A stretch of DNA of 34,874 nt. Source: Mitosporidium daphniae. Lineage: Eukaryota; Microsporidia. Every line of letters starts with the position of its first letter. Positions within the stretch are counted from its first letter, which is position 1. Below are positions 1-34,874 of this stretch, in pieces. The stretch covers positions 1 through 34,874 of the forward strand of contig NW_013546323.1 of assembly GCF_000760515.2 (NCBI RefSeq), written 5' to 3'. Made by a program: the position numbers and the translations under genes. Below the pieces are notes generated by a model, which had not been told where the DNA came from, searched no databases, and saw nothing but the letters and a program-made list of their open reading frames with translations.

Positions 1-550
1 ATGGAGTGTCTTTGGATTGGGCCTATGACTAAGGTTACAACAGGCAGGGAAACCATTAATCTCATGCGCACCACCCAGAGTGGATTGGTGATGGATGCAG
101 AACAACATCCGGCAATCAATGCAGATACGGAATGCTTTATCCAGGGAGACGTGCTAATAGAGTTTTCAGATTCGAGAAGTGCATTTGTGTTGCGATAAAC
201 GGAGAAAAAAATCGCCCATGAAGGGAGATAGCCCAGGAGAGTTGGGGTTAGCCCTCTATACAATCCCCGGATCCCTTCCTCCTTAATGATAGCCTAAACA
301 TAAGGCATCATAAATTTGCACCTTAAATATAGAAGTTGCGCCGACCGCTAAATTCGCGTTTGAAACGGGAAGTGTTTGTATTTTTATCTTTAAAACGTCG
401 AGAGGACACGCGAAAATGGCTGCAGTAAAGCCGGAAATCGCACCAATCGCCACGGTCGGTACAAAGTCATTCGATTGCCTATAATAAGCTCAAGCGGTAA
501 AATAAATACCAGTCATGGTCATCAAAAGAGACAGGGTCCCGTTTTGACAT
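1..550 (-). CDS. Mitochondrial carrier (SLC25) protein, partial 3' end, NAD/FAD/folate-carrier type
   Basis: Inner-membrane solute carrier; the gene runs off the left edge. Minus-strand exons are 550-510, 478-322, 293-54 and 22-<1, separated by introns of 31, 28 and 31 nt. The spliced protein starts MSKRDPVSFDD. It carries the first carrier signature CPLDVLKIKIQ, the loop EEGIRGLYRGLTPTLLGYLP, then PSWAIFFSVY and the second signature NPLWVVRMRLMAQ. A Trp in the second signature (NPLWVV) and the WAIFFSVY helix are typical of the YIA6/FLX1/SLC25A32 subgroup, which moves NAD, FAD or folate; the exact substrate is inferred only. The third repeat lies outside the window. The start ATG is the only one that opens the frame. 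It lies 174 nt from the divergent ceramide synthase start. Confidence 0.88.
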
Positions 551-724
551 TCAAAATGAAATACCAATCATTATGGCACCAGAATTTAATTTTAGGCACT
601 TTGCAAAATTGTGCAATGTTCAACCTTATTTTGTTTATTGGGCGAGAGCTGATGTGGCGTTGCTGGGGGCTCGATGGCAGAATTATTTTTCATTTTGCAA
701 TATTAGAATCCCACCACCCACATT
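551..724. promoter_or_regulatory. Shared divergent promoter region, carrier / ceramide synthase
   Basis: This 174-nt stretch between two divergent start codons must hold both promoters. It is AT-rich near the ceramide synthase end. I see no motif I can name. Confidence 0.5.
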
Positions 725-1753
725 ATGATGTATCCTATTTCTAAGCCTGTCTATTTCATTGGAGAAAAAATTGGAATTAATTTCAGCAATCCAACTGCTT
801 CCCCCGATCGATGGTACATGGCCAAGTCTGGAATGTTCTTTTTGGTAATTTTCCTTCTTTTTTGGATGATACTTCACTTTTTTGTGCACATGATCTCATC
901 TTTGATTGCAAAATATCTTTTGCCAGCCGAGAGCTGCTCCTCAAGCGTGCAAAAGACCGATGCCAAGTCGATGTTGAGCAAAGTCAATGCCCCTGGTGTA
1001 CGGCAGAGAAATTCCAATGGAGAACGGTCCAAGGCGAAAAAGGAGGAACCGGCTTGTTTGAGCGCAAGCAATAATTGTAACAAAGAGCCTTTGAAGCGTG
1101 TAAAGTTTAACGTTGCGTTCTGGAAGGCCGTCAATTATTCGTTCCTCGTTTTTGTTGGATTGAAGACCTTGCGATCGGCGGATTGGCTGCCAAACTACCA
1201 CGAATATGCTATACCTTTACCGCTAATCGAAATTAAAACCACAATTTATTATCACCTTGCAATTGCTTCATACCTGTATGGCTTCTTTTGCCTGCTAGTG
1301 GAGCCTCATCTGAAAGACTTCATGATAATGGTTTCTCACCATTTGGTTACGCTGCTGTTGCTGATCGGCTCATACTACTTACTTGGGTCGGTACGCATTG
1401 GCATGGTAGTCATGATTCTTCATGATATTTGCGATCCTTTTATGGAGATTGCAAAGCTTTGTCTTTACGCGGATCTCCATCTTCCTGCGAACGTCTTTTT
1501 CGTGTCCTTTGCGTTGATCTTTATCGTTTCCAGATGTGTTATTTATCCAACATTTGTCATACACCCACTATTTATTTTACTGCAAAGCGAAGAGAATCAA
1601 ATGATGATTGCTTATGCCCATCTTTTAATGTTGTGTATTATCTTTGTTATGGATGTCTATTGGACATTTCTTATCCTCAAAATGATCGTCGCTCAGTTGA
1701 CCGGCAAATCGCTAAAAAGAGACATACGCGAAGAAGTGGACAATGAAGACTGA
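725..1753 (+). CDS. Ceramide synthase (LAG1/LAC1, TLC domain)
   Basis: Endoplasmic reticulum enzyme that N-acylates a sphingoid base with fatty acyl-CoA to give (dihydro)ceramide. The ORF is intronless, 342 aa. It has an N-terminal membrane segment at about residues 36-60, a charged Ser/Lys-rich loop at about 70-125, then a TLC domain with several membrane helices. The Lag1 motif is clear: the His pair in VSHHLVT (205-206), then SYY..GSVRIG and LHDICDPFMEIAK, with the HDxxD acids at 233-237. The C-terminus is acidic (REEVDNED). The size is near the low end of the family (about 350-420 aa). Two ATGs are adjacent (725 and 728), so the start could be either. It ends 34 nt from the stop of the convergent acidic-protein gene. 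Confidence 0.93.
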   Translation: MMYPISKPVYFIGEKIGINFSNPTASPDRWYMAKSGMFFLVIFLLFWMILHFFVHMISSLIAKYLLPAESCSSSVQKTDAKSMLSKVNAPGVRQRNSNGERSKAKKEEPACLSASNNCNKEPLKRVKFNVAFWKAVNYSFLVFVGLKTLRSADWLPNYHEYAIPLPLIEIKTTIYYHLAIASYLYGFFCLLVEPHLKDFMIMVSHHLVTLLLLIGSYYLLGSVRIGMVVMILHDICDPFMEIAKLCLYADLHLPANVFFVSFALIFIVSRCVIYPTFVIHPLFILLQSEENQMMIAYAHLLMLCIIFVMDVYWTFLILKMIVAQLTGKSLKRDIREEVDNED

Positions 1754-1787
1754 TTGAAGGAAAGGGTTGTTTTATTTACAAATAAAT

Positions 1788-2249
1788 TTACATGATTTGA
1801 CATCGACAGCATTGAATTGGACATTTCCTTTTAATTTCTGAACACTCTTTTGCTTGATTTGCATCGCGGATTTCGGTGACCGGCCAAACCTTCTTAGCCT
1901 CTGATTCGCGCTCCCACGCGGACCCACATGATACGTCCTCCCTAATTGAGGACTGATCTTCGGGCTGATATTCGGGCTGATATTCGGACTCATCATCTAC
2001 ACGCTGCTGGTCACCATCATGATCATCATGATCACCGCGGTGCGGCAGTAAAGGTGTTCTTGGAATTTTATCGATCTTTTGAAACGGCAGCGGAACGCTG
2101 AGCTCCGACTCGTCGTGATAAAACTCGATCTACAAAGTTATTGTTGGTCTGCTTTTCATTACTGTCCTATCTCCAGATAAAATAATGTTAAATTGATGGT
2201 TTTGGCCAGTGGGCGAGCTACTTGAATTAAACGAGGAAATTGTAGACAT
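1788..2249 (-). CDS. Hypothetical acidic protein, two exons (142 aa)
   Basis: I do not recognise this protein. Exons are 2249-2163 and 2129-1788, joined across a 33-nt intron with GTAATG at the 5' end and TTGTAG at the 3' end; exon 1 is an exact multiple of three and the join is in phase. The product starts MSTISSFNSSSSPTG, continues FNIILSGDRTIEFYHDES, has a His/Asp-rich and Glu-rich middle (GDHDDHDGD, then two near-identical EYQPE steps), and ends in a Cys cluster (CPIQCCRCQIM). The Cys cluster hints at metal binding but is too short to assign. The start codon is only 23 nt from the start of the divergent mL58 gene. Support is the clean splice, the unbroken frame and the snug fit between neighbours. 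Small nuclear or complex subunits such as APC13 came to mind, but I see no decisive motif. Confidence 0.6.
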
Positions 2250-2272
2250 TTTTTATAAAATCAATTTGTAAA
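2250..2272. promoter_or_regulatory. 23-nt divergent spacer between start codons
   Basis: The ATGs of the acidic-protein gene and the mL58 gene are 23 nt apart in opposite directions. The spacer is AT-rich (ends TTTATAAAATC...TTTGTAAA). Each gene's core promoter probably lies inside, or its transcript starts within, its neighbour's 5' end. Confidence 0.5.
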
Positions 2273-3157: not shown

Positions 3158-4332
3158 TTAGTTTGACTCTTCATCGCTCACAAAAATTCCGTCCAAATAC
3201 CTAATAAAAGGATCGTTTTCAAGCGTGAGGCGCAAATATCTATAAGTTACCATGAGATTGAGTACTTTTCATGATCCCATAAAGACCTTTGTGAGAGGCA
3301 ACTTGCATTAAAGGGCTCCTTGATAAAGTCTCCATTTTGCACCTACAGGTAAAGCAGCAGGCCGAGCAATACCCGTTCGCGCAAATAGTTGATTATTTTG
3401 ACAAGGTCATAAAACGAATGCAAAGATTGGCGGGAAATCTTTTTCAAATCAAGCCCATGGATTTCGGGGAGGTGGCCCTCAAAAAGGTCGTCAAAGTCGT
3501 TAAAATCCTGATCGTCAAACAGACATTTGATTTTTTCCGTATCGGACTCTTGCCACTCACCCCAGCTTGAGTCGGAGTCAACGGCACCGTGCCAATTGTC
3601 ATCCTTATCGATGCAATTCTATGCGTCAACGCAAAACGTAGGTACCTGGTAGTTGATAAGATAGTACTTGTCAAATGAGGTATCAAGCGGATTGATTCGA
3701 GCATGCCTTTTACCCTGCATGTGGGTCTTCACGGCATCAACGCTTTCAAAACAATTGTCACAAAAAATGCAGCATAAATTTTTCAAAAGCCGATTGCGCA
3801 GTACAGCGATAAATTCGGGCAAAAAGACCAGATTATATGCTTTACCAAGAACCAGCCCATGCGACTTATCTAAGTGTGCAAGGTATTCCGGATACGATTG
3901 CCCCGCAGCTTCATTGCATATGAAGCATTTTTCGTGTTCCAAAGGGGCGCAAAGATCCTCTTTTTGCTGTTTTAAAAGGCAGGAAAGCAGGGAATGTTCC
4001 AGTTTGAATCGAATCAAAGCGTCCGCAAGCTGGCCGGGGTTTTCCGGCGTAGCGCCAACATATGTGATCCCGTCTTTTGAGTAAAAGTTACTCCTGATTT
4101 GGATTTCGCAATTATCCTGCGTGAAATAGTAATTCAAATAGGACTCCAAAAATGGCGCTACTTGAAACGCCTGGAACACGCAAAGCTTATGCCGATTTTT
4201 GAGATGTGCCAAAAATCCAGATGCAGAGTCAAACAGGCCTTGTCGACATCCCTCAAAAGTGCAGCGAATGGGCGTGCAAACCAGGTGGGCGTTATCCTGA
4301 TTCCCCGCGTGGTTGACTTCATCGACAATCAT
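3158..4332 (-). CDS. ZNF277-like C2H2 zinc-finger protein (363 aa)
   Basis: Five-part reading with four exons: 4332-3646, 3618-3373, 3342-3266 and 3239-3158, separated by introns of 27, 30 and 26 nt. The protein has fingers CTFEGC...HLKNRH, CFICNE...HLDKSH and CCIFC...THMQGKRH. The third is followed by the family block INPLDTSFDKYYLINYQ, then an acidic Trp-containing linker (DDNW...SSWGEWQESD), a fourth finger-like segment CLFDDQDF...HLPEIHGLDL, and the tail EKYLRLTLENDPFIRYLDG. This order matches the ZNF277 family, nuclear proteins linked to chromatin and ribosomal-protein interactions; the function here is inferred. In the fourth segment the second Cys of the usual CLFC is Asp, so that finger is probably degenerate. 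The TTG codon upstream at 4344 is not needed; ATG 4332 is the first Met. It lies 30 nt downstream of isocitrate lyase on the same strand. Confidence 0.82.
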
Positions 4333-4362
4333 TTTAGAATGCAAAAATTTAATTCAACGCAA

Positions 4363-6210: not shown

Positions 6211-7040
6211 ATGTATATCCGCTACCTCTGTGTTGGCGCTTTACAACATCCTCCTTTGGCAATAAAAATGGAAAATACGGATATCTGTGAAAGTGACTCC
6301 GATTATCGGATATTTCCCTCGCACGAAAGTAACAAGTTGATACTGTATTTTTATTAGTTAGATCGTTCTCCAAAACGGCTGTAAATCTCAATCTCTTGGC
6401 AGAGACCATATTGCATGCTCCTTCGATTTCTCCATTCTCCGGGGTAGATTCAAAATCTACTTCTAGAGATGCCTGCCCTCTTAAAATGCGGTCGATCGAT
6501 TCACCTAATGCAATTTTCACGCATCATAAGCAGGACGAACTAATTGGTTTCCGGTCGATCCTGCCTCCTGGCCATTCATATTCTTTTGATCAAGATTTAC
6601 AGCCTCAAAGAAGGAAGAAGCTTTGTGCAGACGATATTATTCTTGAAAAGAAAAAGGCTCACATTGTTTCTGAGCAGAAGCGTCGGCAAAACATCAATGA
6701 CGGCTTTGAAGAGCTCAAGCAAATAATCCCAGCTTGCAGTGCCACTACGGATTCTAAGGCTGTTATTCTTAGAAAAGGTATCAGTTTATGTTGGCATTTT
6801 ATCTTTTTTATTGTAGCGGTCAATTATATCAAATCTCTTGAGGCTCAGCTTGTCCATAACACAGATTTAATTCAAAGGCATCCAATACACAGCAAAACAC
6901 CACGCCATTTAAAGCCACACCATTCCTCTCCACTGCCACTGATTTTTCACGGGGCAGCAAGTATTGCACATTCAGAGGTTTTCCATCTGAATCAAGTAGA
7001 TAGTATTCATATAGATCCACTTACTAATATAACAATATAG
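6211..7040 (+). CDS. bHLH transcription factor, E-box (class B) type
   Basis: Exons 6211-6328, 6358-6777 and 6817-7040; introns are 29 and 39 nt. The basic region and helices read EKKKAHIVSEQKRRQNINDG, then GFEELKQIIPACS, then SKAVILRKAVNYIKSLEAQL. The basic region has the His-Glu-Arg triad (H-x3-E-x3-R) of factors that bind CACGTG-like E-boxes. The SEQKRR..I..GFEELK pattern resembles the MLX/RTG3/INO4 group. The leucine zipper is short. The 39-nt intron is a multiple of three without a stop, so its retention would add 13 residues inside the loop-helix 2 region; the spliced form fits the family. ATG 6268 in the same frame is an alternative start (234 aa instead of 253). Targets are unknown. 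It is divergent from isocitrate lyase. Confidence 0.8.
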
Positions 7041-7165
7041 AATTTCAGTTTTAATTTAGGGTTCAATTTTAATTTCAGTTTTAATTTAGGGTTCAGTTTC
7101 AATTTCAGGTTCAATTTCAGCTTCGGTTTTAGTTTCAGTTTCGGTTTCAGTTTCAGTTTAAAACT
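7041..7165 (+). repeat. Low-complexity TTTCAG/AATTT repeat tract before GLE1
   Basis: After the bHLH stop, a T-rich tract repeats short phrases such as AATTTCAG, TTTAGGGTTCA (twice) and TTTCAGTTTCGG. It runs to about 45 nt before the GLE1 start. It probably holds the bHLH 3' end and the GLE1 promoter. No longer unit is conserved. Confidence 0.7.
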
Positions 7166-7207
7166 TTCATGTCAATTTTATTTTTACATTGAAGTTTTTC
7201 GTCTTGA

Positions 7208-8630
7208 ATGCAGAACCATAAAAGTGTACTTTCCACAATTAACGCTTTCCATTTTTCCTCCAGACAATTGGTAGACGATCTGCAGGAGCAAATTAGAACT
7301 GCCGTGGACAAGATTTCGAATGAACTCAATGAACTAGAGGCTAAAAGGTATTGTGCTCTGATGCATTTAACTTGAGGGTTTCTTCTCTTTCTTTGAGATC
7401 CGAACAATATGTGAATGCTCAGGCAACTGCCGAAAAAGTACTCTTGGTCAGCGTTATTTTTAGATCATTCAAGAAGAACTAAAATTAAGGCAAGATGAAG
7501 AGAGACTAAGAGCTGCAGAACATATCCGTCTTTTGGTCATACAAGAGCGACAGAAAAAAGAACGACAGAAAAACGAACAGCAGGAAAGAGAAAAACAGGA
7601 GCAAAAGCTTGTTGAGGCTACAAAAACTCAAGAAGCTCCGCAAACGATTGGTACTGAGCTTTATGGTGGAGCCACGAAGAACAAGCTTGAGGGTGAAGAA
7701 ACAACGTCTCTATATGCATCAAGAGTTATATATTTTCTCTGGGCTGAAAGGGTATTTACTTTAATATTTTGATGTCTTCAGAGCCTTTCTTTATTGATAT
7801 CTGAGGAGTTTTCGTCTCCCAAATTTCCGAACATAAAACCAATGATCCTGGGATTAAAAATGAAGATCAATACAAAAATTTGCCAGATAACTCAATCCTC
7901 CTCTCAAATAAGCATTGTGGTTAGTACTTTCATATCGAAAATTCTTTCCATCTAGATAAACGGGCTAAAAGAGATCGTATTGGCGGCTGGCACTCAAAAC
8001 GAACATTTGCTTAATTTCTGCCAGTTTTTCATTTCAGAAAAAATATGCGACCAGGCATCTATACTGGCAGCATCCCATCTTCCTGCTGCCGTATCAATTG
8101 CACGAGTGTGCCATGGCATATCGAAATTTGGAATCCTTCCAGACTTTCTTGTCAAATTGCTGGGGACCCTAGCATTTAGATGTCCTCTATTAAATGGATC
8201 AAACCCTTCTGGGTTTTCATTTTCAAAACTTGGATACAAAATGAAACCAGATGGCATTTCAGTAAATGAAACCAATGATTCTTGGATCGAACGGATGCGA
8301 GGATACATTTCCCTGTATATCGCAATTCTTTTGTGCGACAATTTTGAGCCTGGTCTGAGTTGGACCCTATTGGTATCGATCCTAAATCTTGACACCCCAC
8401 ATCCATGGATTCCTTTCTTGTTAGTTTCTATCCTTGATGTTGGTTCGATATCCTTTTTTAGATTATTTCAAGGTTATTATTTGAAGCTTATTTTGTTGGT
8501 AAAGGAGCAGCTCATTCCCACTCTAAAGTCCACAAGCATTGCATTTTCTCCCAAATCCTCGCTTCCAAGATTAGAAATTATGGTAGATGAGATTTTACTA
8601 AATCCAACTTCTGTCGGACTTGCTTTATAG
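7208..8630 (+). CDS. GLE1: GLE1-type nucleoporin / mRNA export factor
   Basis: Works at the cytoplasmic face of the nuclear pore, where Gle1 (with inositol hexakisphosphate in yeast) activates the DEAD-box helicase Dbp5 for mRNA release. Exons are 7208-7347, 7377-7437, 7464-7751, 7782-7919 and 7956-8630, with introns of 29, 26, 30 and 36 nt; total 433 aa. The N-terminal half is a long charged coiled coil (ERQKKERQKNEQQEREKQEQ). The C-terminal half is the GLE1 domain: KINTKICQITQSSSQI, the HLPAAVSIARV helix, SWIERMRGYISLYIAIL, and FLLVSILDVGSISFFRLFQG. The first intron ends in GAG and is supported by phase and by a TTTAAC motif. The fourth intron could start at 7917 instead of 7920 (one residue difference). 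Shorter than yeast (538 aa) and human proteins, mainly N-terminally. Confidence 0.85.
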
Positions 8631-9482: not shown

Positions 9483-10844
9483 ATGAAACTCCGGTTTGCT
9501 GCGTTGACGACTGTGCTTGCTGCGGCTGTTACCATTGTCTTAGTATACACGCTAAAGGGGTATTTTGATAGCAGTTTTGATGAAGCTAGTGAGCTATCAA
9601 ATAATATTAAAGCCTCCTTTCTTCCTGATTCTCTTGCTCTATCGCGTTTAAAAACCAGCGGGAAACAAGATCTTAAAGATACTCTTTGTTTGGGGACTGC
9701 ATCCAGTAATTACAAAGAGCATCCTTCAAAGAAACCTTTTTTCATCATGGGGTCTGGAATAGCAATAGTTACTCTTTCTGCTTTACTGATCCATATTTTG
9801 CAATCAGATGAACCTGCTAACTCAGCTCAAGATCATAATTATATTTTAGCGTACGGATTCCTCATATTATTAGCTATACACTTTTTTACCCCGCTTCTCA
9901 ATATTTTGATATTTGGCCGAAAGAACTTGGTATTTGACCATAAGCTACTGGTTCGCATATATTTAGAGCGCTATTATGGGTTTATTGAGGCCATGAAAAA
10001 ACTCGAGCCTAGTAATCCCAATTCAAATCGTCCTAAAATTAACATACCGAACTTATTTGACGGGGTTAACGTTTTAGAGACGTATATAACTATTTTCCCC
10101 AACACCACGCAACTATTTCCGGACCCTTTATCATTTTCTGACACTGCATCACCAGAAACTTTGAAACTAATCAAAAATTTCCCACCAAACCTTGTCTACA
10201 ATATTCTTCAAGATTCTACATTCAAAAATCACTCGTTTCCTGAAAAATTTACAGGCTACAGACCCATCGGAGATGCCCAAAGCTATCAATTTTATTTCGT
10301 CATAATTTACGATGACCTGAAGTATTATCCGATTATAAATCTACACGTTAATGATATGGTCAATTCTTTTCTTTATAATTGCTCCCTTGATACACTTTTA
10401 AACCCTGAAGAGCGATTTATGCCCATCATAAATGGGACTAATACAGATATGTTGAAAGAAGCACAAAACTCTCTTAAAATTTTGCAATCGAGAACCTCAG
10501 AGGCGATTGCTTTGAGTCTTACTTTTCCAAAAAATACGACTGAAATTAAGAAGCTATATGACTCTGCTGAATTTGTCGCTGCCAGAAACTACTTGAAAAG
10601 GTTCTTGACTAAAGGTCCTATATCTTATAATATTCAACGTATATTATTTCGTAACCCTTTGCCCCAATATTATCCATACTCTCGTTTAGAGTTAAACCTA
10701 ATTGCTCCTGAAGAAGAATCTGTGATTAAGTATTATATGTCCTGGATTAATTCGACATTCGAGGAAATGGGTCAGGAATCTGCCGGGAATAAGTCTGGAA
10801 AGAGTCAGGAATCGGCGGGGAATAAATCCGGAAAAGGCCATTAA
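9483..10844 (+). CDS. Unknown membrane protein with Gln/Ser/Gly repeat tail, probably frame-broken
   Basis: I do not recognise this 453-aa protein. An N-terminal hydrophobic segment (about residues 5-26) is followed by a short loop and two more hydrophobic segments (about 85-108 and 122-147), then about 300 soluble residues with several N-glycosylation sequons. This suggests a membrane or endomembrane protein with a large extramembrane domain. The C-terminus enters two copies of an 11-residue repeat (GQESAGNKSGK) and then stops at GH. Downstream the same repeat type returns in the +1 frame for another 160 codons, so the stop looks like the result of a frameshift (a deletion or a sequence error) inside the array. 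Its start ATG directly follows the stop of a short upstream open stretch. No neighbour suggests a role. Possibly lineage-specific. Confidence 0.65.
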   Translation: MKLRFAALTTVLAAAVTIVLVYTLKGYFDSSFDEASELSNNIKASFLPDSLALSRLKTSGKQDLKDTLCLGTASSNYKEHPSKKPFFIMGSGIAIVTLSALLIHILQSDEPANSAQDHNYILAYGFLILLAIHFFTPLLNILIFGRKNLVFDHKLLVRIYLERYYGFIEAMKKLEPSNPNSNRPKINIPNLFDGVNVLETYITIFPNTTQLFPDPLSFSDTASPETLKLIKNFPPNLVYNILQDSTFKNHSFPEKFTGYRPIGDAQSYQFYFVIIYDDLKYYPIINLHVNDMVNSFLYNCSLDTLLNPEERFMPIINGTNTDMLKEAQNSLKILQSRTSEAIALSLTFPKNTTEIKKLYDSAEFVAARNYLKRFLTKGPISYNIQRILFRNPLPQYYPYSRLELNLIAPEEESVIKYYMSWINSTFEEMGQESAGNKSGKSQESAGNKSGKGH

Positions 10845-11319
10845 TCTGCAACGACATGAGCCTGGAAATGACCAGGGATCTGCCATTAATCTGCAACGAC
10901 ATGAGCCTGGAAATGGCCAGGGATCTGCCATTAGTCTGCAACGACATGAGCCTGGAAATGGCCAGGGATCTGCCATTAGTCTGCAACGACATGAGCCTGG
11001 AAATGGCCAGGGATCTGCCATTAGTCTGCAACGAAATGAGCCTGGAAATGGCCAGGGATCTGCCATTAATCTGCAACGACATGAGCCTGGAAATGGCCAG
11101 GGATCTGCCATTAGTCTGCAACGAAATGAGCCTGGAAAAGGTCAGGAATCTGCGGGGAGTGAGTCTGCAAAGGGTCAGGAATCTGCAGGGAATAAGTCTG
11201 GAAAGAGCCAGGAATCTGCAGGGAGTGATTCCGGAAAGGGGCAGGAATCTGTCATTAATCTGCCACGAAAGGACCAGCCTATAGCCCGCCCCACAAAAGC
11301 TGGGGCTAATATCCAGTAA
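10770..11319 (+). repeat. Compound tandem repeat array: 33-bp and 45-bp units
   Basis: Order: two 33-bp units (10770-10835, peptide GQESAGNKSGK), seven 45-bp units (10838-11152, peptide GNGQGSAINLQRHEP in the frame beginning at 10837), then about three more 33-bp units (11140-11238), overlapping the end of the last 45-bp unit, and a unique tail ending at a TAA at 11317-11319. Both unit lengths are multiples of three, so all six frames stay open for long distances; other-frame ORFs here have no meaning. Relative to the 45-bp consensus, 11 nt are missing at the 33/45 junction near 10837, which causes the frame break for the upstream gene. Confidence 0.92.
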
Positions 11320-13031: not shown

Positions 13032-13683
13032 ATGCAAGAATCCACTGAAACCCGTTTCCCTACCGCTACCACCTCTCCATCTCCTTTGCTAAAGGGCTCG
13101 CAGCTTTCACCACAGCTTCGGTTGGTTAATCCGCCTTGCCTGATCGTTTATCGTGAGATGCGCTTTCTTCTGATGGATGCCCCTTCAGAGCTGACCGTGC
13201 CCCTTTACATCAAGGAGATGCATCGACACAATGTCACCGATCTTGTACGGGTATGTGAGCCGACATATAGCCGACCCACGGTCGAAGCATCTGGGATCAG
13301 AATGCATGTAAGGGCATTCATTTTTAACCCTCGTTTAGGATTGGATCTTTCCAGATGGTGCTGCGCCGCCAGGGGCTATCGTTCACCAATGGCTTGCCTT
13401 GTTGAAACGCACCTTTTCCTTGCACGCAGCCGACTCTTTAGAAGAGTATGATGAGGATACGACCAGATCTACCGTTGCTGTCCACTGTATTGCAGGTTTA
13501 GGACGCGCTCCTGTCCTGATTGCCATTGCACTCATTGAACACGGGATGGATCCTTTTGATGCTGTGCTTTTCATCCGCAGAAAGCGGCGGGGTGCTATTA
13601 ATCAGATGCAATTGAAGTTCTTGGAGACATACTACCACAGGCACAAGCGTGCAAAGACTGCTCCTCGGTGCAGCCTCATATGA
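13032..13683 (+). CDS. PRL-type (PTP4A) dual-specificity phosphatase with CaaX box
   Basis: Exons 13032-13307 and 13339-13683, joined across a 31-nt intron; 206 aa. Conserved PRL sequence: VRVCEPTYS, then GIRMH joined to [18 protein letters not shown] at the splice, and the active site [12 protein letters not shown] with Cys142 and Arg148 (CX5R; the Ala after the Arg, rather than Ser/Thr, is a PRL hallmark). Then [13 protein letters not shown]. It ends CSLI, a CaaX prenylation signal, so attachment to plasma or endosomal membranes is likely. PRLs act in growth control and bind CNNM magnesium transporters in animals. In the acid loop the usual PFDDG is FPDG, leaving one Asp as candidate general acid. 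The N-terminal 30 residues are Ser/Thr/Pro-rich and extra compared with human PRLs (173 aa). It is convergent with the hydrolase gene. Confidence 0.9.
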
Positions 13684-21312: not shown

Positions 21313-24300
21313 ATGGCGTTTTTCCACAATCTAACGCTATATGAGGGACATTCGGTATATCACGCGCTAAGTTCAAATGTAATTTCCAGCCACAAAAAGA
21401 GCCTAATTTTAAAGTACCCCTTTGTTGTAATGCCATAGCACCGGACAGCGACTTGACATGTACAGCATCGATGCCGAAGGCTGTGAAACACGGTTTTTCA
21501 AGTCGTTCCCGATCAACGGGAAGATCATCGCACTTGCTATGTCTTCGTTAAAGGTTTTTATCGCATTTGATGGTAGGGCCATTTGCTTCCTTTCGTCTTG
21601 CTGGTCACAAAGAAACTGCAGTTTTGTGTTTTGCAGTGGGATAGCAGCTCATACAATCTTCGGTGTGTCTTCAGTGCGTCTTTGAAGAGTGATATTGGAA
21701 AGCTTCTCAAAGAAAATGCCAGGCTTGTGGTCGAAAATAACGGCCACTTTGCGTGTGTATATTGCATTTCAGGTCTTTTGAAAGTAATTCCTCTTGACAA
21801 TATATTCAACTGCCCAACAAAGGAGATCTTTTCCGTAAGGTATGCGCGCAAATACACCGCTCTTACCATCAGATTTGACGACCTCGTTATAAAGGACTTT
21901 ATTGTACTATCCAAGCCGGCTCTTTTATGCTATCAAATTTCGGCATTGGTTCAGGAAAACTCCGAATCCAAATCGATCAAGCTATTCCAGTTGAATTTGA
22001 AGGCAAAAACAATGGAACGCATGCAGAGCATCCCGGCTTTAAAGGTGCCGCTTGAAAGTCAAAGGATACTTGTAGATGGTATTTGGGCTTTGGTTTTACG
22101 TTTTAGACTTGCAATGTGATTCGTTTGTCATCATTGGGTCCAACTCCATAAGCTATTGTAAAGTTACCCCGAATTCCGTTTTAATCCACGCTAGCCGGGC
22201 ATTTTCTTTTGGCGAAATCATAGAGTTACACTGTAACATCGCTTACCATAGTGCCCATTTCTTCCCCAAACACGAAGAAAAGTTTCAATTCCGAAGACTC
22301 GTCATGTTAAACAGCCTTGGTATTCTCTTTATGTGCTTTCTTTATCCAATGCAAGATGCCGGTCAGGCATTTAAAATTGACGTTGAGGTTTTAGGACATG
22401 TATGGTTCCCCTTTGGATTACTTACGTTTAGACCATTTTGGCAAGCTGTTTTACCTTCATAGACTTTGATAAACTTTTCTTGGGATCCTCGTTTGGAGAT
22501 TCCATCTGCATTCGATTGTCGGAAGAGCCGATTATGCAGCCAAGAATCCCATCCATATTGGATTCACCTGCCCATGATTGCTCTTCGTCTGTTGATAGGC
22601 TATTTTTTAAGGAGATTTCTAAAATTACAAACACAGGACCGATACTTGATTTTACGCTATCAGACATGGATACAAAGAGCTCTTGCACAAGTAGCAGCAA
22701 ACAAATAATTGCATGCTGCGGGGCATTTACCGAATCGCGTTTAAAGCTAATTCGAAGCGATCTTTCGACCCAAGTATCATTGGGGGCACTTTTTAATGAC
22801 TGGACTTCGGTTTTGTTTGAAAAAATATGGCAATTTCCGCAGCATTCCCTGTGCGTCTTGTCGACCCATTTTCAAACGGTATTTTTGAACCAAACCGGGG
22901 ACTCATTTAAAGACATTTCACGCTCTTTTTCTGACGTGAACTCGCCCTCATTGCTAGTTTCTCCTCTAAATAACAACAGAGATATTTATATCAGAGTCAC
23001 CCCCACGCGTGTAATAATTTTTAAAGTGGGTATGAACACGGAAGGTGTCGATAATACAGGGGACATACATATTGATGATCTCGCCTCTTCTTCTGCGTTT
23101 CTTTCGTACAATCCTCTTATTGAGGTGTCTTTTTGCTCGCTGCTGTATGATGTTTTGGTTTGTGTTTTTATCGACTCGTGTAAAGGCCAATCGATCTTTT
23201 GTTTTTACAAAATCTCCCCAGATTACTCCCTTATAAATATACAGGAAATTCCCGTTTCTGGGCAAGTGTTTGCCTTTTCGGTTCTTGCTACCAAGAATCT
23301 AATGTCTTTATCTCCTCACAGTGGAATTTTGGTGTATTCAACTTGGGAATTTCCGAGCGATTTTGTTGTTGCGGCCATCAAAGAGGAGCAATCAACAAAG
23401 CTGATTGAGATTTGCAGATACACATTATCTGATCAGGGCAATAATGTCATTCAACGCTCCGGTTGTTCTGGTCAAAATGGGGCGTATGAAATGCCTTTGC
23501 TCATTTCCTCTCTCCAATTGGCTTCTTTTGTTAATGCATCATCGGATACTCCATATGCTATTTTTCTGAACATTGGAACAGGGGATGGTCAACTATTCGT
23601 ATTTTCGGTCTCGCTGGCCCTTTCCTCAGATGTGCAGGAAATCTCCATATTATTTGAAAAGAAAATTGGATTGGGAAACAAACCGGTTCAATTTTCTTCA
23701 GTGACCACTGGAAACATGCCCACAACCTTTTTGTTTGCATGGGGCGACTTTTCGGTAATTCTGTTTTGTTCTTCTTCGATTTTACGGCATGTGTTTCTTT
23801 CTAGCGTGTCGAGCCCCGGTACCGTTGAATTTAATACGATTTCCTTGTTTTCTAACACCAACGTTGACGTTTTCTGTCGCCCATCAATGATGGCCATTTC
23901 CAAAGTCGGGCTTCAAAGCGATCACGTTCTTTTGATGTTTAGTTTTGATGAAATTGTTACTCAACACATGCAAATAAAATCGTTTCCCTTGATATCGAGT
24001 AAGAGCTGGGAAATGCCTATCCGAATTTGCTACTGTGAGCTTTCCAACATTTATGCGGTTATCACGTTATCCTTTGAAGGCCGGTGTTTAAGCAATTCGA
24101 AAAACGGCCACTCATATTTGAGGCTATTCGATGCAAGCTCCATGAGGGTACTTAATTCCTATCCTTTTCTGGATGGTGTTCAAGCTACTTGTCTCGATGT
24201 CGTCGATTCCTTTCTTATCGTCGGATGCTCCATATCTCCTAAAGATGGGCTGCTTCCGCAAAATGGCGAAGATGCATCCTCTTTTTTCGAGGGATCTATA

Positions 24301-25294
24301 TTTGTATTTAATGTGCATGCTCAAATGGCATCTTGTTCGCTTTCCCCTATATTTGAGCATAAAATCCCAAACAATTCCAAAGGGGATGGCGGTCCGCTGT
24401 ATTCGCTGGCCCACTATAAAAAATTCATCTTTGCTGGCGTTCAAGCACAAATCTTGGCATTCAGATTTGACAACTGCACCATGCCGCAACGATTGGTCCC
24501 GGCAGGCCAAAAGTACGCCCAAATTCTGCCCATGTATCTGACGGTGAGCGATAATGAATTGATTGTCGGCGATGTGATGAAGTCGATTTCAATCTCACGA
24601 ATCGCCGTTTGTAGTGAAGAAAAATCCAAATACGAAGGGGAGTTTTTGATGTTCGAAGAGCTCGGTAAGGAATACGCTACACNGTGGATGACATCGCAAG
24701 CCGTATTTTCGTGTTGTGATTCAAAAACGTATGTCGGATGTGATGGAGAGGGTGTGCTTTTCTTTCTTGAAAGACCTGCAAATGCATCTAACATTGTGGA
24801 TGAAAAGGCTCTTAAAAAAGTCGCCTCGTTCTACATCGGCGATACGGTCAACCAATTTCGACGAGGAAGCATATCCTTGCAATCTAGCCTTGATAAGGAA
24901 TCGGACTTTGGTTTGTTCATATTGATTGACCGTTAGAAACGTATGTTTATTCAACGACCGGCGGAAGGCTTTGCCTATTGACGTCCATCCCGGCTCAAGA
25001 CCACCAGGCACTGTGGAGGGTCCAGACCGTTGCAAAGAACCACATCCAGACGTTGGGAAATCTCGACCATGATTTGTATGTTTTTTTCCTAATTTCAGAT
25101 GGAGATACGGGGAAGCTCCCAACCGCGACTTGGGTGCATTGGTTATTGACGGGGACTTGGTTAGATGCGTCAATGAATTGCCAAAAGACTCCGCCATACT
25201 AAACAACATTACTAGCGATCTTTTAGCCACCGGCCTATTTGATTCCAAAAAGCGATTATACAATTTACTAGAAAAGTATTCAACGCTTCTTTAA
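21313..25294 (+). CDS. DDB1: DDB1-like UV-damaged DNA-binding protein 1 / CUL4 adaptor
   Basis: Triple beta-propeller scaffold of CUL4 ubiquitin ligases, acting in DNA repair and replication control. Exons 21313-21413, 21439-21553, 21577-22078, 22107-22399, 22432-24910, 24937-25075 and 25099-25294; introns 25, 23, 28, 32, 26 and 23 nt; 1274 aa (human 1140). Diagnostic blocks: LLPFVLLVTKKLQFCVLQWD, then SGLLKVIPLDN (human GLFKVIPLD), SFVIIGSNSISY, KLFLGSSFGDSICIRL formed across a splice, KKVASFYIGDTVNQFRRGS, and the C-terminal VIDGDLVRCVNEL. Related SF3B3/RSE1 and CPSF160 share the fold and the end motif, but the KVIPLD and FGDS blocks favour DDB1. One ambiguous base (n at 24683) falls in coding sequence. 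It is convergent with SHMT, 34 nt between stops. Confidence 0.85.
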
Positions 25295-25328: not shown

Positions 25329-27151
25329 CTATTGGCCGGGCGCATAGAACATTCCTGAAAAGGCCTCCACCTGAGCACGGAGATCCTAGTAAAATTGAAC
25401 CAAATAAAACGGTACTTTGATTTGTTGCGATTTTTCGGCTTCATGTGAAAACTCTTTGGGATCAACACAAGCGGCCTATAAACACACAGGTAAAACGAGC
25501 GACCTCACTTGGATTGACAAAGAAACCTGAATGGCACGATGGAGTATGGAGGCAACCTGCTCAATGTCGTTGTTATTAAAGCCGCGCGATGTTATAGCTG
25601 CAGTGCCGAGCCGAACACCGCCAGGATTGATGGCACTGGTATCCCCCAGAACAATGTTCTTATTGATTGAAATTCTAAAATTAGCTGTGCAAAGCAAGAA
25701 AATACCCGATGAGTTCGCAAATTCTTTCATATTTAGAGCCGTTAAGACCAAGCGGACGTAGATCCCACAATAAAAGGTGGTTGTCAGTGCCGCCTGTTTG
25801 GATCTTATATCCAAAGGCTTTCAAATGATCACACAGCGCAGAGCAGTTGCGCTTCAGCTGAATGCAATATTGCTTAAACTCGGCAGAGTTTGCTTGCTTT
25901 AGTGCAACTGCAACGGCTGCAATGGCATTGTTGTGGGGGCCGCCCTAAATAAATTTGACACCCAAAGCTTACTTGGCACCCTGGGAATACAGCCTGATTG
26001 ACTCGGGCCTCAAGGTCCGTTTGAGCCCCTGTTGAATGATGTTTCTTTCTATAAAAGATCAGGGCGGCTCTGGGTCCACGGAGGGTCTATTGATGGGCAT
26101 AAATGACACACAAATACCTTGTGTGTTGTTGTAGTCACAATGTCGCAATATTTAAATGGATCCTCTGCTTCCTAACAACAAAAAGGCGGCGTATGTACTT
26201 TCGCAGCTATAAGCCCGCTTATGTGGGCAACATCGGCCATAAAATATGCACCCACTTCATCCGCAATCTAAAAAACATTAATGGATATGGCGCTACTTGT
26301 TTGAACGACAAATAGTCCAATTCTCTTGGATATGCGCTTGCTCCGCATATGATGAGCTTGGGCAAAAACAACTTGGCCGAAGATCTCAGGGAAACATAAT
26401 CAATAAGCCCAGTATTCTAAAATTGGTACGGAATCATTCAAACCTCGTCTATTCGATAGGGAAGCGATTCAAAATAGATTGAGGTCGCAGAGACTTTTCT
26501 TTTAGCAGTACGATAGCCGTGGGTTAAACTAAGAAATCAGCGAAAAAAAGTACTGTCCTCCAGAGGGCAAATCCAATCCCATTATGCGGTCATGGGGCGC
26601 AAGTAGTGCGGTATAGGCAGCAAAATTAGCGGTGCTGCCAGAATATGGCTGCACATTAACACCCCACTCTTCAGGATCAAGCGAGAAGGCCGTCAGTGCT
26701 CTTTCCTGGCACAAGCGTTCGACACGATCAATAACTTCATTGCCACCATAATACCTGGCCCCAGGCAATCCTACTGTTTTAGGGCTTTGATCGAATACCT
26801 TCCGAATATTTGTTGGTCAGCACTGACCCCAAGGCGTCCAAAACAGCTTGGCTAGTGTAGTTCTAAAAATAAAACGCCATCAGGGACCTCTGAGGCTATC
26901 AACTCGATCCCATGCCGCTGTCTATATTTTTCTTCCTCAATGAGAGAAAAAATCTCGGGATCGGCCTGCTGAAGCGGCAATGAAAGAAGAATGGAAGGTT
27001 CGGATGATTGGACTTTTCTCGAAAAACAGGATGTTTCATCAGAAGTAACATTAGCACTCGAAAGCATTTTATTTGGATGATGGCGGAACAGTGCACGAGA
27101 CGTAGTTCTCAACGAGGCTATGCCAAAAAAATTTATTTTGAGACAACACAT
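25329..27151 (-). CDS. SHM1: Serine hydroxymethyltransferase, mitochondrial form, 12 exons
   Basis: PLP enzyme interconverting serine and glycine with tetrahydrofolate, feeding one-carbon metabolism. Exons: 27151-26888, 26862-26799, 26770-26554, 26528-26444, 26416-26297, 26267-26199, 26171-26118, 26086-25973, 25944-25706, 25674-25527, 25475-25416, 25385-25329. The eleven introns are 25-31 nt except one of 51 nt. The spliced protein is 496 aa. Landmarks: [74 protein letters not shown] with the PLP-binding Lys, and [15 protein letters not shown]. The N-terminal extension ([18 protein letters not shown]) is rich in Arg, Ser and hydrophobics with no acids, so mitochondrial import is likely. An internal Met (MLSSAN) could give a cytosolic form. 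This is the most intron-dense gene in the window. Confidence 0.95.
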
Positions 27152-29807: not shown

Positions 29808-29832
29808 AATAAATTTAATGGTTTAACCCGAA

Positions 29833-30529
29833 TTACACGATCACCACGGGCGGATCTATCTCCTCAAACATTGTTATAAAGGAAAAAACATTCACCTCCA
29901 AGTCAGAACAGAATGACAATGGATATGCGAGCAAATCATCGACTGCACGCCGGTCAAGTTGATGCTCTTTGAGCTCTATACATTTCTTGTAAAAAGCTGG
30001 CGCTTCCAATATTTTTTGGCCCCCAGAAAGAAAGAAGAAAAAAACAATCTTTTCAGAGGCCCATGACCAATATATCTAAGGCTCATTTGAAAGCTGAAAA
30101 TACCTGCTCATTGGAAAGCCTTTTCCGGCATTCGGAACTTGAAATATTGTAGCCATGCTTCCACAACTTGTTCCATCTATAATCGATAAGAGCCTCGAAT
30201 ATTTCCGACAACAAACCGGGAATCCGATCCATAAGTTCGTCTGGCAAAAGGCTCTCGATGATGGTTTTCGAAATGGCCTGAAAGCTTGAAAGTTCTATCA
30301 ATGCTTTAAAAGAGACCATATCCTTTGGAGGTGAAGGGTATTTTTCCAATATTAAGGGCAACAGATCCTTTTGCCATTCCTCATCAAGGTACTTGTTAAT
30401 CGAGCGATCTTTGCCAGCAGTCTTTTTTGTTGATTTTGACTTTTTTTCTGCACTGTTTTTGGCATCAGTGCTTTTTGGCGATCTCTTCCGGGAATCGTTT
30501 TTGGTAGCCGAATTTCGAGCGATCGCCAT
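29833..30529 (-). CDS. Hypothetical basic and helical protein (222 aa)
   Basis: Not recognised. Exons 30529-30104 and 30075-29833 with a 28-nt intron, in phase. The N-terminal 40 residues are Lys/Ser-rich (KRSPKSTDAKNSAEKKSKS), like a nuclear localisation tail. Then comes an all-helical region: LDEEWQKDLLPLILEKYPSP, LLPDELMDRIPGLLSEIFEA, LIDYRWNKLWKHGYN, YWSWASEKIVFFFFLSG. The end includes a second coding block up to a stop at 29833. The Trp/Phe-rich C-terminal half suggests a structured subunit of a nuclear complex. It is divergent from bL27m across 287 nt. Confidence 0.65.
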
Positions 30530-30816: not shown

Positions 30817-31215
30817 ATGCTCCATCCTTCCTCCACTTTGATCGGCACTTTCTTTCAATCTTTCATTAGTCTCCGATTTGCCACAAATATGACAAAAGCC
30901 AACACGTCTCGAAATACGAAAGGGTCGCCGGGTCAGCGACTTGGATTAAAGAAATTCGCCAATGAAAAGACCAAAATCGGCCAGATTATTGCCAGACAAC
31001 GGGGCACAAAATGGCACCCAGGGGAAAATGTATTTTCTTACCTTGTTTATGTGTAGGTGGGTCTTGGTAGGGATCATACCATATTCGCACTTGCCAATGG
31101 AAAGGTAGAGTTTTCAAAGGACAAGTCCAGAAATCGAACGTACATTCATGTCAGGCCGCTATTCACCCCTGGGCCCCGAGATTTTTTGCTTAGCCCAGTT
31201 GCTGTTGATCCCTAA
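30817..31215 (+). CDS. MRPL27: Mitochondrial ribosomal protein bL27m
   Basis: Large-subunit mitoribosomal protein near the peptidyl-transferase centre. Exons 30817-31029 and 31057-31215 joined across a 27-nt intron; 123 aa. The N-terminus ([19 protein letters not shown])is a plausible mitochondrial presequence. The bL27 core reads [20 protein letters not shown] then [14 protein letters not shown], continued across the splice by [18 protein letters not shown]. The split falls inside the universally conserved [12 protein letters not shown] block, which makes the tiny intron very secure. The tail is short compared with yeast Mrp7. It is followed by a 122-nt gap before the convergent VDAC gene. 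Confidence 0.95.
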
Positions 31216-31337: not shown

Positions 31338-32342
31338 TTACATCTCCACATTCAGGGAGCATCCCAGCTTACGAGAACTGAGGTCATTGGGTGCAAGAGA
31401 ATCAAATGCAGCGGCAAGTGTCAACGAAACGCGTTGACTGAGACGAGAGGTGTAAGAGAGGGCGGCCTTTCCGGTATGGTCCATTTTTGCCTAGAATAAG
31501 TGATCCGCCCAATTGGTACCTTTAAAAAGGCCTGCTTTTCCACGGGAATCCTGCATCCAAATTCCAATAATGAAGAAGACAGTGCTTTTGCATGTGTCAC
31601 TTTACATCCAACTTCTGTACCGGACGGAAACTTTTGATATAATGTGGTCATAATCGAGGAGCCGCCATTGATAGCATGAAGTGTGGCCTTATAATTTGGA
31701 TAATCAACTCCAATTGCAAAAGAATGGCTATCAATCATTGCTTTGGTGTTATCAAAAGAAACAAAGGAGCCAATTACAAAATCACGGTATTTAAAGGAAA
31801 CGCTGTTAGAACACAGAGGGCCTTTGGCCAAATCAACAGCAAGCGTGGAATGGAGAAGTGCCTTGCAATTAAAGGCGGTGGCATACGTCAGGCCCATCTT
31901 GGTTTGCAATGAACTAGGCGGAAAGTAGAAGGAAGGCTACCCATCTTTTAAAAATAGCCCTGTGGCATTAAGAGAAAGCCCCTTGAAGTAGGGATCCTTC
32001 AATTCGATCACCTCTTCAAGGGCCCCCTGAGAGGTAAATTTTGTTTGGCTTTCTAAACATTAAACACGAATATGCTGGCACCCAAAATAATATAAGAGTG
32101 TTCTTAATGTCTCCATTTATAATATTTTTGCTCAGGTCATTCGTTGCATTTACGCATATTTGTGAGGTGGAACCCTGGGTCTAGACATTATACAGATCAA
32201 AGGTAAACCGATGTCTCTGTTCCATTGACTTCAAGCGTCAGCACATCAGATGGGTAGTTCTTGGACAAAATGTCCAGCGCACTTTTCCCAATGTCGGCAT
32301 ATTTAATTGAGCCTAAAATCAAATCGCGATGAACGTACTCAT
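31338..32342 (-). CDS. POR1: VDAC / mitochondrial outer-membrane porin, one exon junction unresolved
   Basis: Beta-barrel channel for metabolites in the mitochondrial outer membrane. Supported exons: 32342-32339 (only ATGA), 32312-32209, a part from 32180, an exon ending 32082, 32052-31941, 31913-31520 and 31490-31338; clear introns are 26, 28, 29, 27 and 29 nt. Sequence: MSSIKYADIGKSALDILSKN, then LESQTKFTSQGALEEVIELK, LQTKMGLTYATAFNCKALLH, AKMDHTGKAALSYTSRLSQR and the end LGCSLNVEM. The 32180-32082 stretch cannot be read cleanly: the frame that aligns best with VDAC (YYKWRH then EHSYIILES) contains TAA at 32106-32104. Removing a 71-nt intron would avoid the stop but delete about 20 residues of a beta hairpin. 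Total length without a gap is about 280 aa, normal for VDAC. Confidence 0.85.
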
Positions 32343-32998: not shown

Positions 32999-33073
32999 CA
33001 TATTTTACACCTCAGAATTGTAAATTAAAATTTAAATTTAAATATTTGCACGCATTTTTTAATTCTCCCCCCA

Positions 33074-34493
33074 ATGACACTTCAACTAGGGCCTCATAGG
33101 GCGTATGTTGGAAATATTCCCTTCAAGGCAACCTCAGATGACATAAAGTCAAAGTTTTCCGAGTTTGGAAATCTCATTGTAATAGATTTGAAGCAGGGTT
33201 TTTGTTTTGTGGTTGATTTCCTTATTTTTATCCGGATAGGAGTACGACTCTGATGAGGCGCTTCAGAAGGCCATTTCAACGTGTAGTAATTCGGATTTTA
33301 TGGGCTACTTATTAAAAGTTGAGAGGGCACGACCGCCGAAGGAACATGTACCAGGAGATGACGGGTGCTACACCTGTGGTTCGAAGAGTCACTTTGCAAG
33401 AGAGTGTCCAGAGAGGTAGACATTTTATTCTCCCCTTTGTAGATTGGGACGTGGTAAACGATCCGAAAATACAGGGTTACGTCGACGAGATCGCGAGAGA
33501 AGTCGTAGAAGATCCCCTTCTAGATCCAGATCGCCAGCCCATAGGAGTTCTCGGCGTAGATCCCGTTCTCGGTCCGGTTCGCCAGCGAGGAAGCATTCAA
33601 GAGATCGAAGTCGAGATCGGTATAGGGTAGCTCGTTCAAGATATGAGGATAAATATCGGTCAGATAGGCGTTCCAGGCGAGATTCGTTTAGTAGAGATGA
33701 GCGTACCGATGTTTCCCAAGCGCCGCAGAATGTCGTTCCTGGATTGGAGTATTATCCGAGTGGCTTTGCCAACATTGTGCCGCAGGGGTCGTTTGCCGTC
33801 TCGGCACCATATGCTATGCCACCAACACAGCCGTATCAAATGCCTGGTGCCCATCCGTCGTTCGAGCAGCCCGGATCGTCCGGATCATACCGTGGAGTGC
33901 CCCCAGGAAACATTCCTCAACCCTATCCCCCTCAGTCTTTGGGGTACGACTATACGCCTGCAAATGGGCCCGCATCATCAACCTCGGCAATGCCCCCGAA
34001 CCAATATCCCTATCCTTTGGCATATAATGGCACCCAGCTTTCATATATGCAGTCGTCCCCATCTGCGCCATATCCGCAGCCATACTATTATCCGGGAGCC
34101 CCATCAAGTCAGCCTTTGATAAGCCCAACTAGTGAATATAGTGTAGGAGATTACATGCTGCCATCTCCGTCCTCCTCTTCTTCTGCATCGTCTCAGCAAA
34201 ACTCCACATACCAACCGATCAGTATGAGGTATGCGCCCATAAGACCAAGCGATGGTATTAATGTGGAATCTCACTCACCCTTAGGCTCAAGCAATAACGG
34301 CACAGGAGTTTCAAGCTCCGATTCCGGCTCTTTTTACCCGCAAAACGATCCAAGAGTTAGTTTACAACCAAATACGTCGGCGTTGTCATCGTCGTCTCCA
34401 TCATCCTCCTCCTCCTCTTATGGCAAAATGTATTCTCAAAATCCGAAAATTTCAGGTCCCTCAAACACTTTGCAAAATAACCCCCCAAGTTAG
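33074..34493 (+). CDS. RSZ-type SR splicing factor (RRM + CCHC + RS + Pro/Tyr/Ser tail)
   Basis: Splicing regulator of the SRSF7/RSZ type. Exons 33074-33211, 33240-33415 and 33443-34493; introns 28 and 27 nt; 454 aa. The RRM has RNP2 AYVGNIPFKA and RNP1 KQGFCFVEYD, the latter formed at the first splice. Next is a zinc knuckle, CYTCGSKSHFARECP, joined across the second intron to RLGRGKRSENTG. Then a classic RS region (RERSRRRSPSRSRSPAHRSS, RSRSRSGSPARK) and a 250-residue tail rich in Pro, Tyr, Gln and Ser. The RRM-knuckle-RS order is that of metazoan 9G8 and plant RSZ proteins; the long tail is not usual. It may help define the tiny introns of this genome, which is speculation. Confidence 0.92.
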
Positions 34494-34874
34494 CTGTCTA
34501 CCCCAATATAATGGCCGGTAGGGATGATCGGTAGGAATGATCGTAGATTTAGTATTATAAAATTAATGAAACTGATCGACATTTAATCGGGTTCGATTCC
34601 CCTTTTTGTTGATGAAAAGCCAACATGAAAGGTTGTTTTTCACAGCTACCATTTGCCCGTTTGTATGGCCTTCCAAGCGGGGGAGTTTGAAATTGGTTTT
34701 ATAAAAGTAAGGCATTTGAAGTGGAAACTTTCCCTTTACATCGGAAGTGGTATATGCAATAATCTAAACCTTTTAGATGTCAGGAACCTACACTGCAGTA
34801 TGAGTGATCCAGTTGATGAGGACATATCATTGGCTGGCTAACTTGAACCTGACGGGTGAATATGAAGGAGACAA
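34494..34874 (+). other. Right-edge region with possible start of a further gene
   Basis: After the SR gene comes an AT-rich spacer with a 13-bp tandem pair (34516-34541, CGGTAGG-ATGAT). A plus-strand ATG at about 34613 opens MKSQHERLFFTATICPFVWP, and splice-like signals follow (for example GTATAT..ACCTTTTAG ending near 34769). The last bases read LANLNLTGEYEGD in an open frame. This could be the 5' end of a gene cut by the window, but I cannot fix its exons or name it. Confidence 0.3.
34516..34541 (+). repeat. 13-bp tandem duplication
   Basis: Two adjacent copies of CGGTAGG(G/A)ATGAT with a single difference, just after the SR-protein gene. Probably a slippage product in the 3' region. Confidence 0.8.

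Follow-up and report, generated by a model that had tools for sequence, protein, structure and literature searches.

Very short, densely packed predicted spliceosomal introns in the microsporidian Mitosporidium daphniae

Contig NW_013546323.1 of the microsporidian Mitosporidium daphniae, a parasite of water fleas (34,874 nt; this whole stretch is called the window), carries 53 curated introns of 23–55 nt, with a median of 28 nt and 51 of the 53 at or below 40 nt. Judging from the sequence, we regard it as close to certain that these are genuine U2-type spliceosomal introns, which would be removed by splicing. A first-pass annotation of the window had claimed as much, and the claim is borne out by GT-AG ends (with a few GC-AG elsewhere in the genome), by verified junctions in conserved proteins and by genes for the U1, U2, U4, U5 and U6 small nuclear RNAs (snRNAs). 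It had counted 52 introns of 23–51 nt with a median of about 28 nt, 48 of them ending in TAG; our rebuilt set closely agrees, with acceptors of 47 TAG, 3 CAG, 2 AAG and 1 GAG.

Homology across the intron junctions of the window

Nineteen of the 53 introns (24–51 nt, TAG in 19 of 19) lie in residue-level alignments to PDB sequences. The spliced SHMT product, from which 11 introns are removed, aligns with PDB SHMT over residues 25–467 without a gap at any junction, the nearest gap lying 6 residues past one of them. The importin-7-like protein adds three ungapped junctions within the 802 residues submitted, eIF2B-alpha a further three, two of which have a one-residue gap, and bL27 and PRL are each ungapped at their junction. 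The three junctions named in the first-pass annotation, in bL27, PRL (MH/DWIFPDG) and SHMT (SGG/HLTHGY), proved correct in these alignments. A weaker VDAC alignment contains four more: two junctions are ungapped, a third has a gap of one residue, and the fourth adjoins a 3-residue gap. For another nine introns the support is a spanning Pfam domain match alone.

These 53 introns remained after hand curation of 68 window introns from the self-trained gene finder described below, and the refined run recovers all of them. Among the 15 dropped calls, four lay in a T-rich repeat (7003–7263), seven fell within long open reading frames (at 9560, 9851, 9930, 10730, 12549, 33620 and 34430) and a 103-nt call at 27118 was discarded as a gene fusion. 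The call at 22320–22355 was also dropped, as were two calls of 22 nt: read without splicing, the sequence at 33379 encodes a CCHC knuckle, and the call at 17071 is located 5′ to the start of eIF2B-alpha and is gone from the refined run, which forbade lengths below 23 nt. At 7041–7159 the T-rich repeat is TTTCAG-like, mimics acceptor sites and misled the gene finder.

All introns are listed in Table 1. The SHMT gene spans 25386–27067. As in a search with isocitrate lyase, its matches came from fungi in general. No M. daphniae protein is named among the best 120 of them, and the Prp8 search does name one; the public M. daphniae SHMT model may be broken by the 11 tiny introns, or may lie outside the size range searched. 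The SR-like protein (33074–34490) combines an RRM, a CCHC knuckle and an RS domain. We take the zf-C2H2_2 gene, whose introns lie within 3240–3645, to be Rei1/ZNF622-like. Elsewhere in the window, 10837–11153 is a coding tandem repeat of a 45-base unit (7 copies, 96% matches) with several frames open on both strands. GC content ranges from 37 to 48% across 2-kb bins. An Rfam scan of the window returned one sub-threshold match and nothing else, ARAGORN found no tRNA in it, and megablast of bases 1–25,000 against phages gave no match.

Table 1. Curated introns of the window. A slash within residues marks the junction. Finder, gene finder only; PDB, residue-level PDB alignment, ungapped at the junction unless stated; CDR, CPSF1/DDB1/RSE1-family gene.
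Position	Strand	Length (nt)	Gene and remarks	Evidence
29-53	-	25	Mitochondrial carrier, gene running off contig	Finder
294-321	-	28	Mitochondrial carrier	PF00153 E 3.7e-31, best stretch 18-107, junction residue 66
479-509	-	31	Mitochondrial carrier	Finder
2130-2162	-	33	Short hypothetical gene	Finder
3240-3265	-	26	zf-C2H2_2 gene	Finder; domain from Pfam
3343-3372	-	30	zf-C2H2_2 gene	Finder
3619-3645	-	27	zf-C2H2_2 gene	Finder
6329-6357	+	29	bHLH gene	Finder
6778-6816	+	39	bHLH gene, within HLH domain (ILRK/AVNYIKSLE)	PF00010 E 2.5e-16, residues 118-169, junction 160
7348-7376	+	29	GAG end	Finder
7438-7463	+	26		Finder
7752-7781	+	30	Tentative; CAG end	Finder
7920-7955	+	36	Tentative	Finder
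8443-8472	+	30	Tentative; AAG end	Finder
13308-13338	+	31	PRL (PTP4A) phosphatase	PDB
14595-14624	-	30	Gene 13786-15518 (no Pfam match)	Finder
14863-14891	-	29	Gene 13786-15518; AAG end	Finder
16434-16465	-	32	eIF2B-alpha	PDB
16696-16722	-	27	eIF2B-alpha	PDB, one-residue gap at junction
16869-16892	-	24	eIF2B-alpha	PDB, one-residue junction gap (best chain), 3-residue gap nearby (second chain)
17753-17775	-	23	Gene upstream of eIF2B-alpha (no Pfam match)	Finder
18058-18085	-	28	Importin-7-like	Finder; beyond 802 residues submitted
18711-18747	-	37	Importin-7-like	Finder; at end of 802 residues submitted
19147-19178	-	32	Importin-7-like, SNSD/LTEQMEAFF	PDB
20535-20564	-	30	Importin-7-like, SALQ/YVLPKDLQ	PDB
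21038-21062	-	25	Importin-7-like, KQA/GLIFFKN	PDB
21414-21438	+	25	CDR	Junction residue 34, within PF10433 match 14-358
21554-21576	+	23	CDR	Junction residue 72, within PF10433 match
22079-22106	+	28	CDR	Junction residue 239, within PF10433 match
22400-22431	+	32	CDR	Junction residue 325, within PF10433 match
24911-24936	+	26	CDR	Junction residue 1151, within PF03178 match 887-1220
25076-25098	+	23	CDR; CAG end	Junction residue 1198, within PF03178 match
25386-25415	-	30	SHMT intron 11	PDB
25476-25526	-	51	SHMT intron 10	PDB; 7-residue gap begins 6 residues on
25675-25705	-	31	SHMT intron 9	PDB
25945-25972	-	28	SHMT intron 8, GCQ/GGPHNN	PDB
26087-26117	-	31	SHMT intron 7, THK/TLRGPR	PDB
26172-26198	-	27	SHMT intron 6	PDB
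26268-26296	-	29	SHMT intron 5	PDB
26417-26443	-	27	SHMT intron 4	PDB
26529-26553	-	25	SHMT intron 3, SGG/HLTHGY	PDB
26771-26798	-	28	SHMT intron 2	PDB
26863-26887	-	25	SHMT intron 1, ASE/NYTS	PDB
30076-30103	-	28	Gene 29833-30529 (no Pfam match)	Finder
31030-31056	+	27	bL27	PDB
31491-31519	-	29	VDAC porin	VDAC alignment, ungapped; PF01459
31914-31940	-	27	VDAC porin	VDAC alignment, one-residue gap at junction; PF01459
32027-32081	-	55	VDAC porin; CAG end; exact ends uncertain	Adjoins 3-residue gap in VDAC alignment
32181-32208	-	28	VDAC porin	VDAC alignment, ungapped; PF01459
32313-32338	-	26	VDAC porin, directly after start codon	Finder
33212-33239	+	28	SR-like protein, within RRM	PF00076 E 8.9e-13, residues 11-71, spans junction
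33416-33442	+	27	SR-like protein, CCHC knuckle to RS domain	Finder; hand model retains CYTCGSKSHFARECP and RS frame
34255-34284	+	30	SR-like protein; possible intron (3n, open if retained)	Finder

Length distribution and splice sites across the sample

Introns were predicted with a two-strand, self-trained gene finder based on codon-phase Markov chains, with GT/AG ends and a soft guess of donor and acceptor sites. Intron length was limited to 15–120 nt, with a flat length prior in the first pass. The sample comprised the window and 20 other stretches of the M. daphniae assembly (L005–L024), 231,920 bases in all, to which the counts below refer unless stated otherwise. The assembly used holds 4,662,434 bases in 147 contigs, about four fifths of the published genome of 5.64 Mb (43% GC, 612 scaffolds; PMC5701793).

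The first pass yielded 258 introns, 154 at 23–36 nt and 15 at 15–22 nt. After self-training there were 359, with 345 at 21–45 nt and 7 above 60 nt. In a refined run GC donors were also allowed, AG was required and lengths below 23 nt were forbidden; it gave 331 introns (324 GT and 7 GC donors; 280 TAG acceptors), 323 of them at 23–45 nt, again with a median of 28 nt. Nearly all introns in the sampled 232 kb measure about 23–40 nt, and their density is 1.85 (refined) to 2.0 (self-trained) introns per kb of coding sequence.

In a decoy control, the site guesses were removed, the flat length prior was kept and the terminal dinucleotides were swapped for 12 decoy pairs. GT..AG produced 103 introns of 23–36 nt compared with 27–46 for the decoys, and its total score was the highest of the 13 pairs. 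The peak at 23–36 nt is therefore not a product of the method. Histograms of donor-to-TAG distance made without homology showed a weak excess at 23–29 nt for GTAAG and carried no weight in our assessment.

The distribution has a sharp lower edge near 23 nt, as seen in the length shape of the first-pass and self-trained runs and in our judgement of four calls; the refined run is uninformative on this point because shorter introns were forbidden in it. In the self-trained run, 4 of 359 introns fell below 23 nt (20, 21, 22 and 22 nt) and 20 measured exactly 23 nt. The calls of 20 and 21 nt sit in one gene of L013, presumably pelota/Dom34. Both were rejected, since reading by eye gave a GC-AG intron of 27 nt and a GT-AG intron of 26 nt in their place. 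The refined run also picked this GC-AG intron (L013:6280–6306), one of its seven GC-AG introns of 24–29 nt. A length of about 23 nt may be the working minimum.

The donor consensus of the self-trained set is loose (A-2 53%, G-1 63%, GT, A+3 72%, T+4 45%, G+5 35%), and 295 of its 359 introns end in TAG. Phases 0, 1 and 2 are taken by 161, 115 and 83 introns of this set. In the refined run, 5.97 of 11 donor positions agree with the U1 complement, versus 4.36 for sampled GTs, an excess that is partly built in because donors were picked by the trained matrix.

Spliceosomal components and a proposed mode of recognition

The assembly has one match above the Rfam gathering score for each of U1 (83.6 bits), U2 (137.2), U4 (97.0), U5 (89.8) and U6 (90.8), counts that are lower bounds; the search for U1, U2 and U6 proposed in the first-pass annotation thereby found all three. 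Fourteen control genomes gave no snRNA match above the cut-off, and U6 appeared below it in four. The 5′ end of U1 is canonical (ACUUACCUG), U2 carries GUGUAGUAUC (canonical GUAGUA) and U6 carries ACAGAGA. Among the proteins, Prp8 is found on contig C59 within a frame that runs unbroken for 2,419 aa; the 2,125 residues submitted are 100% identical to DI09_1p450 of M. daphniae. Slu7 (71.9 bits) and Prp18 (173.7 bits, in three places) are present above the cut-off. Loss of these two factors as an adaptation to tiny introns was predicted, tested and refuted. Since both genes are present, introns of this size do not presuppose their loss. U2AF35 (U2AF23/35) is near full-length: its residues 1–187 align with the PDB U2AF 23 kDa subunit, presumably that of S. 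pombe, at E 6.8e-85, and its gene model, which lies outside the window, itself holds a 27-nt intron.

Three contigs (C56:48546-51884, C80:658-3996 and C118:8869-12207; L029–L031) carry copies of the Prp18 region that agree at 3338–3339 of 3339 bases; either the segment multiplied recently or the assembly is redundant here. ENA contigs encode a Prp8 93% identical (P0242) and an isocitrate lyase 82% identical (P0002) to those of M. daphniae, so that public assemblies seem to contain one or more Mitosporidium sister species.

Several observations weigh against our interpretation of the introns and their machinery. Twenty-one of the 53 window introns, including the one at 33416 with its motif support, come from the gene finder alone. 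The three introns of 23 nt all belong to the Pfam-only or finder-only classes and none is aligned at residue level; the shortest introns that are so aligned measure 25 nt without a gap, or 24 nt if a gap of one residue is allowed. The SF1/U2AF search suggested in the first-pass annotation succeeded for U2AF35, the small subunit being the part of U2AF covered, and failed for SF1/BBP: a search of the assembly with SF1-HH gave no match, and likewise none in the control genomes. This miss may be a matter of sensitivity, because the search ran exon by exon and about one fifth of the genome is missing. The branch motif, obtained by expectation maximisation on the 345 introns of 21–45 nt, is a weak YTRAY-like one whose matrix derives from those same introns. 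Where the first-pass annotation had seen many TAAC, TGAC or TAAT, comparison with shuffled interiors confirms TAAT (75 versus 52.1) and TAAC (38 versus 27.4), with TGAT also in excess, and does not confirm TGAC (20 versus 17.0, no excess); TTAAC falls below the shuffled level (7 versus 10.2).

A KH-BBP search, which also gave matches in 10 of 14 control genomes (above the cut-off in one), returned an exon of 46.2 bits. The spliced gene that holds this exon (G000:C56:20455-20577, L033) looks like KHDC4 and not like SF1. It has 5 predicted introns of 25–32 nt.

For 199 of 345 introns, versus 107 of 345 after shuffling, the best match to the branch matrix falls 6–9 nt from the intron end (flat position prior; matrix trained on these introns). 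Among the 89 introns no longer than 25 nt, about 15–17 nt (median 16) separate the donor from the putative branch. The first-pass annotation deduced that there is scant space in such introns for contacts with U1, U2 and the branch point; the contacting segments are canonical and the donor-branch distance still amounts to these 15–17 nt.

We propose that U1, with its canonical 5′ end, and then U6, through ACAGAGA, would select the loose AG/GTA donor. The GUAGUA of U2 would pair with the weak YTRAY-like branch site, whose putative A would in most cases precede the intron end by 6–9 nt and follow the donor by about 16–20 nt (medians per length class). The small subunit of U2AF may then recognise the strongly preferred TAG acceptor, followed at step 2 by the Slu7/Prp18 machinery.

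Origin of the introns and comparison with known systems

We hold with moderate confidence that M. daphniae has thousands of introns at near Rozella density (about 8,000, extrapolated from 331 in 231,920 bases to 5.64 Mb), nearly all of 23–40 nt with a sharp floor at about 23 nt. In this model, genome compaction in the microsporidian lineage would have brought longer introns down to the limit of splicing while the spliceosome stayed near-standard; mass loss and strict motifs would have come later.

Recent gain from an introner-like element, instead of shrinkage of ancestral introns, is unlikely, as the introns form no clear sequence families: the best pair reaches 79% (T-rich repeat) and the next 74%, versus 72% in one shuffled set. 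Slightly less probable still is a mixed population, in which the finder, with its maximum of 120 nt, missed a sizeable minority of introns above 60 nt. Under the flat prior GT..AG gave 62 introns of 61–120 nt, fewer than the 68–95 of the decoys, and training left only the 7 of 359 mentioned above. In-frame protein insertions, or programmed frameshifting or bypassing in place of splicing, can practically be set aside: although 28 of 106 introns of 3n length (21–45 nt) stay open when retained, 239 of 345 lengths are not a multiple of three, the other 78 of 106 hold an in-frame stop and the assembly has the full set of five major spliceosomal RNAs. Such stops also occur in 51 of 124 introns of 3n+1 and 66 of 115 of 3n+2 length; no conclusion can be drawn from the excess in the 3n class, because stopless 3n introns are hard to detect. 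Sequencing or assembly frameshifts or decaying pseudogenes, conceivable in a draft assembly of many contigs, are just as implausible, for they would yield neither 23–40 nt inserts with GT..TAG ends nor the GT..AG excess over 12 decoys, and the verified junctions, 11 of which excision restores in one housekeeping enzyme (SHMT), weigh strongly against them.

M. daphniae offers an intermediate between the intron-rich Rozella and the nearly intronless microsporidia, which makes a 'shrink, then lose' order testable. A fungal spliceosome with five snRNAs, Prp8, Slu7, Prp18 and U2AF35 that apparently handles introns of 23–30 nt helps to separate the requirements of small introns from mere losses in reduced spliceosomes. 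In genomes of this kind, many gene models would be broken by callers built on the assumption of longer introns. M. daphniae would be, to our knowledge, the first fungus whose whole intron population has this size. The M. daphniae genome paper (Haag et al. 2014) lies outside the literature searched; within that literature, as far as the excerpts extend, the combination of an early microsporidian with many near-minimal introns, loose motifs and several standard spliceosomal parts was not found described. No title or abstract among the papers listed deals with M. daphniae introns. One M. daphniae gene is noted as intronless (PMC6309107). Beyond this remark, the excerpts of PMC7017984, PMC12795684, PMC4589312, PMC13174016, PMC12449221, PMC5701793 and PMC12534020 contain no description of its introns.

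The first-pass annotation called these introns comparable to the shortest known nuclear introns, which is fair with Paramecium as the nearest case; they are not the shortest, as Stentor, mikrocytids and the nucleomorph go lower. In Stentor coeruleus, introns of 15–16 nt are mostly GT-AG, without a strong branch consensus and with all snRNAs present (PMC9505925). They are shorter than those of M. daphniae and near-invariant in length, and Slu7 and Prp18, present in M. daphniae, are given as N/A in the Stentor table. Mikrocytids (16–17 nt) and the chlorarachniophyte nucleomorph (18–21 nt; PMC10245619) share with M. daphniae numerous ultra-short introns in a reduced genome. However, their introns are shorter and narrower in range, and in mikrocytids the intron sequence is conserved and the spliceosome heavily reduced. 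Paramecium tetraurelia, with dense introns of 25–45 nt (PMC5014332), is the nearest match in length, but it is a ciliate and not a fungus. In Paramecium, pressure acts on introns of 3n length, in which in-frame stops abound, a pattern that the detection method confounds in M. daphniae.

Within the same phylum, the introns of Encephalitozoon cuniculi are among the smallest spliceosomal introns, and a logo of 37 shows relatively strict motifs (PMC3629993). M. daphniae is instead intron-rich, with loose motifs and with Slu7, Prp18 and U2AF35. The canonical microsporidian pattern of few introns and strict motifs is not what we find, with 331–359 predicted introns in 232 kb and loose donors. Rozella allomycis has 2.53 introns per kb, compared with our 1.85–2.0, a comparison that covers density alone; the mean for 15 microsporidia, among which the excerpt does not name Mitosporidium, is 0.01 (PMC8476143). 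Genomes with the shortest introns (Paramecium, the B. natans nucleomorph and dicyemids) show relatively high intron density (PMC2483917), and with its median of 28 nt and 1.85–2.0 introns per kb of coding sequence M. daphniae fits this ultra-short, intron-dense class. The class itself is already known elsewhere; the striking part is its density and its setting in an otherwise nearly intronless phylum.

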